From Asterochloris sp. CNOR1 (taxonomy: Eukaryota; Chlorophyta; Trebouxiophyceae; Trebouxiales; Trebouxiaceae): a stretch of DNA of 64,000 nucleotides. The stretch is taken from contig OZ017750.1 of assembly GCA_963969365.1 (NCBI GenBank), forward strand, positions 1,736,001-1,800,000. The letters run 5' to 3'. Positions 47,725-64,000 of this stretch are shown piece after piece. A program made the translations under genes and the position numbers. Within the stretch, counting starts at the first letter, position 1; the number at the start of each line of letters is the position of its first letter. The notes under the pieces were generated by a model. That model ran no database searches and was not told where the DNA came from. It worked only from the letters and a program-made list of their open reading frames with translations.

Positions 47725-50700
47725 ATGGCAGACACCGAGGAGGCTGAAGCCCTGGAGGCGCTGGGGAGCCTGGCAGGCTTTGCGACGTGAGTCACTGGCA
47801 GCATTCGCCACCTTTGCCATAGTGAAAGCGGGGGCATGCACCTCAGGACCAGCAGCAGCAGCCAGCAGCCACTTCTGCCACGCATGGCATGCCCTGCTTG
47901 GCATGGCACACAATGACAGCCTGGCCCTGCACTGCCTGCAGGGGCGACACGAGTTCGCTGTTGCACCTGGTGCAGCAGGGCCACCAGGACGCTGACGCCC
48001 TGGGTATGCTGTCTGCTGGCCCAGAGAGGGCTGTCAAGCAGGAGCAGCTGCAGAAGTGGATCCAGTGCAGCAAGTGCAACAAGTGGCGCAAGGTGCGTGA
48101 TGATGGCAGGGAAGCTGGGCAGCAAGGCTGGGCACCCTGGCCTGGAGTGCATGCCACTCCTGCTGCATGCATGACATGCATGCGCAGTAGCAGGTCAAGT
48201 CCTGCAGGCAGCGGCATGGCACAGGAGCAGTGTCACACTGGGGCCCGCTGTCCCCATTGGCGCTCGCTGTGCCGCCTAGACAGCTTTGATGTGCCTGCTA
48301 CACGTCTGCCTCATGCAGCAGCGTATTCTTGCGCTCTGTTCTCTGCTTTGCAGGTCCCGTACACTCTGCTGGACGAGGACATCCCTGACATCTGGGAGTG
48401 CAGGGACAACCAGTGGGATGCTGCCTATGCCTCATGCGAAACAGCACAGGCCCTGACAGATGCTGCCATCGACAGCATCCTAGCAGGACAGCAGGACATA
48501 GAGGCAGAGCTCCTGCCCCTAATAGCACCTGTGCTGGACGACAATGATGAGCCATACGAGGATGATGGGTGAGCTTGCAATTTGCTGCAGCATATTTTGC
48601 TGCTGTCACATGTATGGCCTGGTCAGGGCCTTGCTGTGCACTCAGGCCGCAGGTGTAGCTCATGACGACAGCCATTGTTGCAGGCAAAGCCTATTGAATG
48701 AAGGGTGCTGGCTCCTCTGTTAGGGCTGCTCAGGCCATGCACACATGGATTCTTGTGCCGAGGAAGCAGTGCTCTTGCCGCCTATACAATTGAACTGCAT
48801 GATGCTGCAGGGAGGAGAGGCGCGGCGGACGTGGCAAAGGCAAGAAGCCACGCCGCAACTTGGGAGACGAGGACTTTGGTGGAGAGGGAGGGGGCCGTGG
48901 GCGTGGCAGGTGCATTGCACTGGCCTGCCGCTGCACTTTGCTCACAGTGCGCCACATGCAGTAGGCTGGGACCATTGGGAAAGGTGCACTCCCTGCACAT
49001 GCATGTCTGCCTGTGACAGAAGCATGCAGTGCCGCAGCTCATGAGCCACAGCAGGTCCCCAAGCCTGGCTTGCTCAAACACTTAGCTTGCTTCAACATGA
49101 TACAGGGCAGCAGCTAGGCGGCTGTGACTGCATCAGCCTTCCATCATGTTCTGGAGTGCAACACAGGTGGGCATAGCATTGCGTGCAGTGACACTGGCCA
49201 GTGAAGTGGTGCACTGCTGCCCCATTGCAGGGCCGGGACCAGTGTCAGCAGGCAGGGGTCAGGGACACGACCGTCCTCTGGCTCTGCACGCACAGCCAAG
49301 GCCCGCGCAGCCAGAGCGCGCAACAACAATAAGGCGCGGGGCGTCCGGGGTGTCAGTGAGGCTGCTGAGGCACTGCTGGGCATGGGCAGCGGCTTTGGCG
49401 AAGAGGATCTGCCAGTGAGTGCTGAGCCTGGGTCCCAAAGGGAGACAGCAGGCACCTGAACTGCAGGGGATCATGTCTTGTGTGTTGGCACACAGGGCAG
49501 GCAGCAGGCATCTGCACAGCAGTGTGAGTTGCTGGCAGCAAGACAGGCATGATGCCTCTGCGCTTGAGGGCACCTGAGCTTGCCCAGATGACCAGCCCAC
49601 TGCTTTTGGGCCACAGACTCTAGCACTTGATCGACTGGAAAATGCGATAAGTGTCCTCGCCCTGCAGATGAGACAGGGCTGTTTCCACAGTCTATGGGCT
49701 CCAGCATCCAGGGACTGCCACCAGAGGGGCTCCAACACCTGGTGCTCTGCGCTGTCGCCCTGGCCTAGACAATGTCATCTGCAACATGCTGATCCAACAT
49801 GGTGCCTGCCCCTCAGGATGAAGATGAGATGCTGGAGGGGGAGCAGGAGGCTGGGGAGGGGCACTGGGCATCTACATCTTTCAAGCCGGGCAGGGTCGTC
49901 TGGGCCAAGGTGGAGGGACACGACTGGTGGCCTGCCAAGGTGGGAGAACAGCTGCAGCATGCATTTTGAGAGCGATTTGCATGCACTTTGGGAGATGCTT
50001 ACTAGGCGTAGCAAACAGCTTCTGTGAGCAGCTCGGTCTGCTGGAAAGGATGCAGGACTGCAAGTTGAGCACAGGCATGGTGCTTGCTGGTTGCCCTTCA
50101 CATGCTTGCACCAAGGTATTCCAACCAGGGCTGCTGGTAGACAGTCTGCACAGCCAACCTTCAGTGCTCTGCAGAGGCGCCATGCAAATTTCGTTGCAGG
50201 TGGTACGACGCCGGGCGGTCCCCCGTGAGGTGAATGGGCCGCCCCCAGGGTCAGACGTGTGGCAGTGGACCCCTGTGGTCTTCTTCACCACCTCAGGCGT
50301 CCCAGGGGAGGTCACAGAAGGCATGGACAGCGCACATGGGGCCCTCGCGGCCTGCATGAGGGCTCTCAGGCTGCCAGGTGAGGCCTCCCGTCAAGAGCTC
50401 TGCTGCTGCCGAGCTGGCGTGCGCTGCACTGTGTAGGAGGCCGTTCTCACAGACTGCCCTGCAGAGCAGAAGCAGACCATGTGGCCTTCAGCCAGGCTGG
50501 TTGGCACACTGCATTGACTGAGTGCTGACTCGCAGTTTGCGATGCACAGGGCGCAGGTGGACTGAGCATGCTGGCTTTCGAATTGCCGGCATGAGTGACA
50601 GTTTGGGCCAAGCTGCGCACCCTGTTGAGTGCATCGCCTACTGCTCCTGTCAGGTCTGCAGGGGTGTGCCTGTCTGTGCAGGTCCTGATGGGGATGAGGC

Positions 50701-62700: not shown

Positions 62701-64000
62701 AGCCCATGCACAGGTCAGCCCCAGCTCAGACTGCTCTGCTGGCCCCTCGACAGCCTTGCATGTTTTGTCCATACGCTTCAGGATATGTTGCTGCCTGCAT
62801 CAACCTACATGGCAGGTTGTCTCCTGCTATGTGTGCACCCAGCGCTATGAAGTATGCTTCGGTGGAACCAGCAGGTGTTTGAGCCTGTTGCACAAATCAC
62901 TGGAAGCAGGTCAAAGCAAACTTCACTGCTCAGCCACAACTGCTCATGTCCTTCAGAGCCAATGCGACTTGGTTGTCAGAATCCAGCACATTTCCCATTT
63001 CTTGCTTGACATACACAAGCACAGGCTGTACCTTCTGGCCCTTGCTGGCTAAAGCTGCGCCCTCAGGCATTCTGTTGTTCTGCTGCATGCAAATTGTTTC
63101 TCCAGCAGCCAGAGCAAAGTTGTTCGCTCAGCTGCAATTACCTGTGTGCTGCAGAGCCAGCATAACCTGCCCATAGTTGCCCAGCACCAGCCTCAGCAGC
63201 ACGTGGTGCTCAACTCAGACATGGATGCCTTTGCCCATCGCCTCAACAGCATTGTTGCCCGGGACTACATGAGTGAAGCCCTAGCCCTGGGCCCAGTTGA
63301 GGCCACACCAGGTGGGACCAGGCTGTCACAAGGACAACACCACCATGCACAGTACTGTGTGAAGAGCTGCTCCTGGCTGACTAGAACCAAAGCCGACAAG
63401 CACTGTTTTGCTGAGCTGTCGCTCTTGACAACAGCTGCATGATGGCAATCCACCCCCCATGCTGAGCTGCTGGTCCATACCTCAGCTCCACCATGTGTAT
63501 GGCCATGTGCAGCTGGCTCATGGCTCTGAACGTCATGATGTGTCCTGCCAGGTGCCCTAAAGTTAAGCGAGGCCTACCTGAGCAACACCGCGCCCCCGCA
63601 GCTGAGGGAGCAGATGCGGGAGAAGGTCAACCAGTTTAAGTCGCAGCAGGAGCAGGTGAGCCTGCCTCGCTGACTATTGCCCTGCAGCTCCTTGTGCTTG
63701 GGCCGCCTGCATGCTGATCTCGGGTGACAGTGTTCCAGAGACCAGGTTGCAGGAGCTGCTCATATGGCAATTGCCTGCTCCCAAGAGACACTGAATGGTC
63801 ATCTGCCCTGTCGACTTCGGCTCAGCTGCAGCTGGACCTTGCCCTGCCTGCATGGCTGTCCTTCCCAGTCCTCCAGCCAAGGGCCTGGGCCCAGCCTGGC
63901 CAAGACAAAGTCCAGGCAGCCGCTCTTGCCTGCATGTGCATTCCTGAGTGGATGCACAATCTGCAGCCCCAAAGTAGCTCTGGTCCTGCATATTGCATGC
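47725..64000 (+). CDS. MOM1/CHD3-like chromatin protein (CW, PWWP, two chromodomains, degenerate SNF2), 3' end off the window
   Basis: Start [20 protein letters not shown] at 47725. Domains in order: CW zinc finger ([19 protein letters not shown]...IWECRDNQW...C; 48055-48450); Arg/Gly-rich basic linkers; PWWP ([35 protein letters not shown]; 49818-50760); [20 protein letters not shown] (51380); chromodomain 1 split by an Ala/Gln-rich insert ([10 protein letters not shown] at 51907 and [16 protein letters not shown] at 53404); chromodomain 2 ([18 protein letters not shown]; 53897-53950); SNF2 N-lobe with Walker [12 protein letters not shown] (54817); C-lobe with [20 protein letters not shown] and KAHRIG (58575, 58924). 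Motif II, normally DEAH, is DGRNCQRS (55624), so ATP hydrolysis is doubtful. The tail has [15 protein letters not shown], an acidic/basic stretch (60780-61030) and helices ([52 protein letters not shown]). This architecture is nearest plant MOM1-type CHD3 relatives. Transcriptional silencing is inference. Confidence 0.85.
50905..51095 (+). repeat. Duplicated exon end plus donor in the MOM1-like gene
   Basis: The exon ends at 50936 (GAGGCAGCCACAGACTCTGA then TGGAG|gtgaag). At 51059-51090 the following intron holds GAGGCTGCCACAGACTCAGA then ttgaggtgaa, a decayed copy 150 bp downstream; a shorter echo (gactgtgatggaggagagcc) lies near 50997. Confidence 0.7.
52243..53110 (+). repeat. Low-complexity Ala/Gln/Pro-rich insert within chromodomain 1 region
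   Basis: One long open exon. It starts as a charged helix ([19 protein letters not shown]), passes a CAG run at 52495-52515 ([10 protein letters not shown]) and continues as Ala/Pro/Gln-rich sequence ([20 protein letters not shown]). It ends in an acidic patch and [20 protein letters not shown]. It sits between the two halves of chromodomain 1 and is spliced in phase to [18 protein letters not shown]. Confidence 0.65.
55142..55183 (+). repeat. Perfect 21-bp tandem repeat at an intron 5' end
   Basis: Two exact copies of CATCTGGACTGGAGACCATG plus C, right after the donor at the exon ending VISYAG and followed by a ctgcag. The copies show no decay, so the duplication is young. Confidence 0.85.
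60375..60800 (+). repeat. Four-fold tandem array of an acceptor/exon-start unit in the MOM1-like gene
   Basis: The exon used by the protein starts at 60759 (tgcag then [29 protein letters not shown]). Decayed copies of the same segment occur at 60382 (TTGATGAGAGCTTGGCCAAC), 60516 (CTGATGAGAGCCTGTCCAAT) and 60641 (TGGATGACAGCCTGCCCAGC). Spacing is 134, 125 and 118 bp; each follows ctgcctgca or a close variant. Confidence 0.8.

Follow-up and report, generated by a model that had tools for sequence, protein, structure and literature searches.

A probable chromatin reader-scaffold of the plant CHD3/MOM1 group, with a degenerate SNF2 ATPase, in the green alga Asterochloris and other chlorophytes

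Do green algae encode a protein akin to MOM1, the CHD3-derived plant silencing protein with a degenerate SNF2 region, or only a CHD3 remodeler that lost its motor independently? The question is raised by a gene that starts at position 47725 of a 64,000-nucleotide stretch of the Asterochloris sp. CNOR1 genome (the window: assembly GCA_963969365.1, contig OZ017750.1, positions 1,736,001 to 1,800,000 of the forward strand). According to excerpts of PMC2507757, MOM1 was dated to vascular plants, with none reported in Chlamydomonas or Physcomitrella. An earlier sequence-only reading of the window proposed a MOM1-type protein in this alga. The proposal holds in part: the degenerate ATPase, the clade and a predicted fold bear it out, and the CMM2 segment of MOM1 was not found. 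The gene is probably the plant CHD3/MOM1 group's representative in chlorophytes; its product would be a histone reader and scaffold that derives from CHD3, is related to MOM1 and is catalytically dead, rather than a remodeling motor.

The gene has 41 exons and extends to 67833 on the window's scale (L009 4833), overshooting the window by 3.8 kb. Exons 1–33 (amino acids 1–1988) lie within 47725..64000, the last of them ending at 63655, and exons 34–41 with the stop codon lie outside, up to 67833; all features described are on the plus strand. The exons were put together by hand from GT-AG sites and then checked against homologues. All 40 introns are GT-AG (130–849 bases, median 269), and the spliced product is a single open frame of 2,728 amino acids without internal stops. 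From its N-terminus it carries CW and PWWP, a chromodomain pair that is split, the SNF2 lobes, then a helical block, a coiled coil and finally a Q-rich tail, and in a Pfam scan of the spliced protein CW, PWWP, Chromo, SNF2 and Helicase_C all pass their own cut-offs. The sequence-only reading had placed CW, PWWP, two chromodomains, SNF2 lobes and a long helical tail in one phase-consistent gene, as the open frame, the introns and the Pfam matches confirm; it needs correction in that the gene runs past 64000 and that a long insert of low complexity, in exon 11, interrupts chromodomain 1.

Relatives were sought with the region from the chromodomains to the coil and with a five-row alignment. The alignment search returned 54 rows, 24 of which were counted as the family of the window protein. 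PWWP and SNF2 occur in all 24 and CW as well in 18 (precomputed Pfam), and several of the six members without a CW call begin late or are partial. The same architecture is found in Trebouxia, Myrmecia, Apatococcus, Prototheca, Botryococcus (a member we name from its JGI id, presumably correctly), Volvox, Gonium, Bryopsis and Ostreobium. By taxonomy look-up, Apatococcus belongs to the Trebouxiophyceae, Volvox to the Chlorophyceae, and Ostreobium and Bryopsis to the Ulvophyceae. The sequence-only reading had suggested looking for the architecture in other chlorophytes, and it turned up in these three classes: the CW-PWWP-chromo-SNF2 protein is conserved across chlorophytes. A 2012 study noted PWWP in a Chlamydomonas and Volvox SNF2 protein and took it for a volvocine-specific gain (excerpts of PMC3457860). 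Those proteins, probably XP_001692864 (Chlamydomonas) and XP_002950874 (Volvox), very probably belong to the family described here; the excerpted text is silent on CW, chromodomains, ATPase loss and MOM1 where they are concerned. The PWWP-SNF2 combination is much wider than the volvocine algae.

The SNF2 region of the family is, judged by its motifs, a degenerate ATPase that has lost key residues for hydrolysis. The motif alignment compared 17 family rows (the window protein and 16 of its 24 relatives; P0035, P0039, P0042, P0043, P0044, P0047, P0049 and P0052 were omitted) with 4 MOM1-type rows and 19 rows of other CHD proteins. Six residues were scored: the motif I Lys, the motif II Asp, Glu and Ala/Gly, and two motif VI Arg. 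The full set is present in 19/19 other CHDs and in none of the family rows. Motif II has Arg in its third position throughout the family (D-x-R, 17/17), where all 19 CHDs have Ala/Gly, and the GT of motif III is absent from all 17 family rows and present in 18 CHDs, the lone exception being a gap in an incomplete piece. In motif VI, the second Arg survives in 2/17 family rows and the last Gln in 1/17. The motif I Lys is still present in 12/17 family rows and the motif II Glu in 8/17. The window protein keeps the Walker lysine in motif I (DEGGLGKT; 54825..54848) and has lost the motif II Glu, with DGRN (55625..55636) in place of the canonical DEGH/DEAH. ATPase activity has presumably been lost, and because the motif II replacement is shared and fixed, a stable noncatalytic role is indicated rather than recent decay. 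The decay of motif II is not alike across the group: the algal rows have D-x-R, the MOM1 of Momordica (P0021) has DEC and the Spirogloea rows have ESP.

Trees were built from the SNF2 lobes (37 rows; P0004, P0005, P0048, P0026, P0034, P0040, P0084 and P0012 were omitted as too degenerate, partial, redundant or off-family) and from the chromodomains plus SNF2 (27 rows). By the style of their ids, we take a canonical CHD3 (P0085, id Chlat1) to be from Chlorokybus and P0027, P0083 and P0084 (ids SM...) to be from Spirogloea. One clade inside the CHD3 part unites the family with the MOM1 proteins of Momordica and Spirogloea and with the Chlorokybus CHD3, at a support of 98/97 (SNF2) and 100/99 (chromo plus SNF2). 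Within this clade, the family pairs with MOM1 (97/97 in the 37-row tree, 98/98 in the 27-row tree), and it still joins a single MOM1 representative (97/95 and 100/100, in the alignment including chromodomains). When Spirogloea is the sole MOM1, the forks within the family are open and Spirogloea is placed among them. The SNF2 part does not group with CHD1 in the 37-row tree; in the PDB, its closest match is CHD4 (248 bits), followed by CHD1 (233 bits). Placement in the plant CHD3/MOM1 clade is thus firm on these alignments, in keeping with the sequence-only reading, and MOM1 is the favored sister; long branches weaken the choice of sister, and a CHD3 sister is not firmly excluded (approximately unbiased [AU] test, p 0.028–0.18).

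The helical block C-terminal to SNF2 (exons 29–31, about amino acids 1742–1880; 61413..62713; delimited by a family hidden Markov model [HMM]) may supply a further link to MOM1. The core segment of this block that the sequence-only reading had pointed out lies in exon 30. An AlphaFold2 (AF2) model of the block from a Myrmecia homologue (predicted local distance difference test [pLDDT] 92, predicted template modeling score [pTM] 0.86) is cyclin-box/TFIIB-like according to Foldseek/VIA. The MOM1 domain PF25029, probably CMM1 judging by its position, was modeled separately at moderate confidence and falls in the same cyclin/TFIIB-like fold class. The algal block is therefore predicted to resemble PF25029 at the level of fold, and the predicted cyclin-like fold and the likeness to MOM1's domain are new here; listings of open-licence PMC papers showed neither an algal MOM1 nor a cyclin-like fold in MOM1. 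The likeness does not extend to sequence. Pfam finds no PF25029 match in the four algal tails tried, hhalign of the algal block against PF25029 gives P 0.06, and HMMs of the MOM1 blocks have no significant algal match among all collected proteins. PF25029 also has no match in the Asterochloris genome, a result of little weight since the controls gave none either. The MOM1-like helical block of the sequence-only reading is thus upheld in its predicted fold and not in its sequence.

Other signs that had been taken as MOM1-like do not discriminate. The chromodomain signature fits the Chlorokybus CHD3 (KSHIHNTW...NKRKL) at least as well. So does the GT.ELF segment (59359..59394), a CHD3-class post-helicase segment that aligns with CHD4 DDILKFGTEELF and has the Chlorokybus counterpart EDILRYGTDELF. 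The CQRS after motif II (55637-55648) is offset by two residues from the CQR of MOM1 and occurs in 0/24 relatives.

The strongest competing explanation is that the gene is a chlorophyte CHD3 of the PICKLE/CHR4 type that lost its ATPase independently, its likeness to MOM1 being due to convergent decay and long-branch attraction. The cyclin-like block would then go back to the ancestor of plant CHD3, canonical CHD3 having since lost it or carrying it undetected, or the fold match would be due to chance. Several observations favor this alternative. The window protein is more similar to the Chlorokybus CHD3 (34.0% identity in the chromodomains, 36.4% in SNF2) than to Momordica MOM1 (28.2% and 25.6%), and the tree program flags long branches. 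The AU test of other groupings gives p 0.044 for MOM1+Chlorokybus and 0.051 for family+Chlorokybus in the SNF2 set, and 0.028 and 0.10, respectively, in the chromo plus SNF2 set. With a slow Myrmecia row as the only family member, the three-way split does not resolve (p 0.078 and 0.18). A separate canonical CHD3 was also not seen in the matches from this genome, so the window gene could be the sole CHD3-class gene. On the other side, the full trees join the family to MOM1, also with either MOM1 representative alone, and a cyclin-like block C-terminal to a dead SNF2 is predicted in both. The HMM of the family block has no significant match in canonical CHD3 (P0085) or animal-type CHD3 (P0006, P0053), which is weaker evidence because the same HMM misses MOM1's domain too. 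On balance, an independently inactivated CHD3 is possible but rather doubtful.

Two further explanations concern the motor and the gene model. That the protein is still an ATP-driven remodeler whose motifs are merely divergent draws on the retained Walker lysine and the partial retention of the motif I Lys and motif II Glu in the family; it is improbable given the Arg fixed in motif II, the loss of motif III GT, the second motif VI Arg missing from 15/17 rows and the absent motif II Glu in the window protein. That CW-PWWP and chromo-SNF2 are two genes fused by the hand-made model could appeal to linker exons 8–11, which are mostly low complexity, and to a model built from sequence alone. Such a fusion is very unlikely: the frame is continuous across GT-AG introns, and the same joined order recurs in database gene models of the named algae and on single contigs, with all three domains in one protein in 18/24 relatives. 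As the sequence-only reading had it, front end and SNF2 very probably belong together. There is also some homology support for both gene ends, because the motifs near them recur in relatives: the N-terminal segment resembles an ALG-x-LA start with pattern matches in 6/24 other family members, and RVNSLSNW near the C-terminus belongs to RVxSLSxW or a close variant, present in 13/25 family rows (window protein counted).

Kinship with MOM1 is the favored reading, and within it the coiled coil marks a limit. A second conserved segment, at about amino acids 1970–2053, is a coiled coil; it begins in exon 33 (63552..63655, from the family HMM chl_coil) and goes on in exon 34 beyond the window. When supplied with a nuclear signal, the CMM2 hendecad coiled coil brings silencing back at some of MOM1's targets (excerpts of PMC2507757 and PMC3276543). 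The CMM2 structure (3vem) is absent from the 40 PDB matches, to E 10, of a 10-row profile of the algal coiled coil. The tail of the window protein has no 3vem match in the PDB either, whereas that of Momordica, as a positive control, matches 3vem at 1.5e-8; for the Spirogloea tail (P0027), 3vem is the sole match to E 10, at E 0.36. An hhalign comparison of the algal and MOM1 coils gives P 0.021, with 1/100 block shuffles equal, as a generic coil could do. Because CMM2 carries partial silencing function and was not found, membership in MOM1 itself is not claimed.

The algal protein shares with MOM1 (Arabidopsis MOM1; Momordica P0021; Spirogloea P0027) the derivation from CHD3, the chromodomains (P0021 and P0027), the degenerate SNF2 region and, further on, a coiled coil, as well as a C-terminal domain predicted to have the same cyclin-like fold. 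It differs in that CW and PWWP replace the PHD finger, for which a Pfam scan of the spliced protein gives no match up to E 1, and in the lack of a detectable PF25029 or CMM2 sequence match. A further MOM1 feature is CMM3, the SUMO-interacting C-terminus; the short motif near the C-terminus of 13/25 family rows, RVxSLSxW or a close variant, is a different one. With canonical CHD3 (Chlorokybus P0085, animal CHD4/Mi-2), among which PICKLE is counted, it shares the double chromodomain, the SNF2 type, the post-helicase segment and a weak DUF1087 match (PF06465, CHD subfamily II; exon 27; 60020..60229; E 0.0088, below cut-off). Canonical CHD3 differs in its intact ATPase motifs, its PHD finger (in P0085) and the absence of a cyclin-like block detectable by sequence. 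Yeast Hda2/Hda3, pseudo-SNF2 subunits of the HDA1 complex, also build a scaffold on a degenerate SNF2 lobe with a coiled coil and are not known to contain CW, PWWP or chromodomains. Their domain, PF11496, is above cut-off in two family proteins, P0046 (Bryopsis; 28.7 bits) and P0051 (which groups with P0046; 41.5 bits), and below it in the window protein; the match is not specific, because canonical CHD3 P0085 also has it above cut-off.

The algal protein most likely serves as a reader-scaffold, bringing partners to chromatin that carries the marks. In other proteins, CW and PWWP domains recognize methylation of H3K4 and H3K36. Here, CW would read the H3K4 state and PWWP would read methylated H3K36 together with DNA, while the paired chromodomains would add nucleosome contacts. 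The SNF2 fold would be retained as a nucleosome- or DNA-binding platform, with motifs II, III and VI lacking the residues for ATP hydrolysis. Cyclin-box folds are docking modules, and the domain C-terminal to SNF2 may likewise dock a partner; the conserved coiled coil would multimerize the protein. In Arabidopsis, MOM1 forms a silencing complex with PIAL1/2, PHD1 and AIPP3 upstream of MORC6 (excerpts of PMC10338684). Its SNF2 part is dispensable, and so is CMM1 in the silencing assay of the same study (excerpts of PMC2507757), which argues against the cyclin-like block being essential for silencing that target in Arabidopsis. By analogy with MOM1, the algal protein may act in silencing, its target loci probably being held silent without remodeling.

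These findings suggest that silencers of this type may have arisen before land plants did. A broader scenario is quite possible, if held with slightly more doubt than confidence: the MOM1-type lineage, a CHD3 pseudo-ATPase with a cyclin-like docking domain, would already have existed in the green-plant ancestor, chlorophytes keeping a CW-PWWP front end and streptophytes a PHD finger and later CMM2, and both would silence through histone reading and cyclin-like docking, not remodeling. If true, MOM1 originated far earlier than dated, given a pseudo-ATPase in three chlorophyte classes and a Spirogloea protein (P0027) with the MOM1 domain; MOM1's unexplained conserved domain would gain a fold as well as a role that can be tested, and single-celled algae would offer simple systems for silencing without remodeling. 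By its sequence, P0027 indicates that, even leaving the chlorophyte evidence aside, MOM1 may be older than vascular plants. The Spirogloea muscicola (Zygnematophyceae) proteins P0027, P0083 and P0084 are PHD-chromo proteins with degenerate SNF2, and P0027 matches PF25029 at E 3.6e-5, below cut-off.

The same assembly contains a CHD1 gene (L011) and a CHD7-like gene (L012), with key residues intact in the pieces read. No further locus with chromodomains plus SNF2 is among the matches listed, although intron-split chromodomains could escape, and the window gene may be the only CHD3-class gene of the alga. Five other SNF2 loci score best as ISWI, ISWI, SYD, SRCAP and SYD; one locus considered as a canonical CHD3 (C6) was rejected, as it scores as ISWI. 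Many chromodomain open reading frames of about 1,179 amino acids with identical scores occur genome-wide (G000 C2, C4, C9, C16 and others) and are likely to be chromodomain-bearing retroelements.

The domain boundaries are as follows. The CW zinc finger (amino acids 60–103; exons 2–3) lies at 47942..48568 (zf-CW PF07496, E 2.2e-12), followed by a basic Gly/Arg-rich linker evident in the translation (exons 4–5; 48811..49414). The PWWP domain (amino acids 262–357; exons 6–8; 49817..50936) matches PF00855 at E 9.1e-13 over amino acids 262–311, its C-terminal part being assigned from alignment, and its region carries a family-specific RRRAVPREV segment. The zinc cysteines and tryptophans of CW and PWWP are invariant in the five-row family alignment. 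Chromodomain 1 begins in exon 10 (51766..51966; sequence and family alignment), is interrupted by the Ala/Gln/Pro-rich insert seen in the translation of exon 11 (52242..53107) and resumes in exon 12 (53377..53555; alignment, and PF00385 at 23.7 bits, below cut-off, in a genome scan). Chromodomain 2 and the chromo-ATPase linker occupy exons 13–14 (53846..54552; PF00385 1.3e-10, amino acids 892–927). The Pfam Chromo match at 1.3e-10 covers two stretches, and the genome scan matches both chromodomain exons, the first below cut-off. SNF2 lobe 1 spans exons 15–21 (54771..57467; PF00176 E 3.4e-32), and lobe 2, with its degenerate motif, spans exons 22–25 (57756..59063; Helicase_C PF00271 E 6.5e-13).

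Within 60369-60785, intron 27 holds three decoy copies of the exon 28 acceptor and first codons, 118–134 bases apart; there are four copies in all, 70–83% identical to the reference copy across 40 nucleotides. The Myrmecia family member P0036 has an F-box match at amino acids 2832–2879, at its far C-terminus, perhaps from a gene-model fusion with a neighbor. The next gene downstream of the Asterochloris locus (L009 5092 onwards, window-scale 68092 onwards) presumably encodes a strawberry-notch (SBNO)-like helicase, as its GAGFFIGDGAGVGKGRQ motif suggests.

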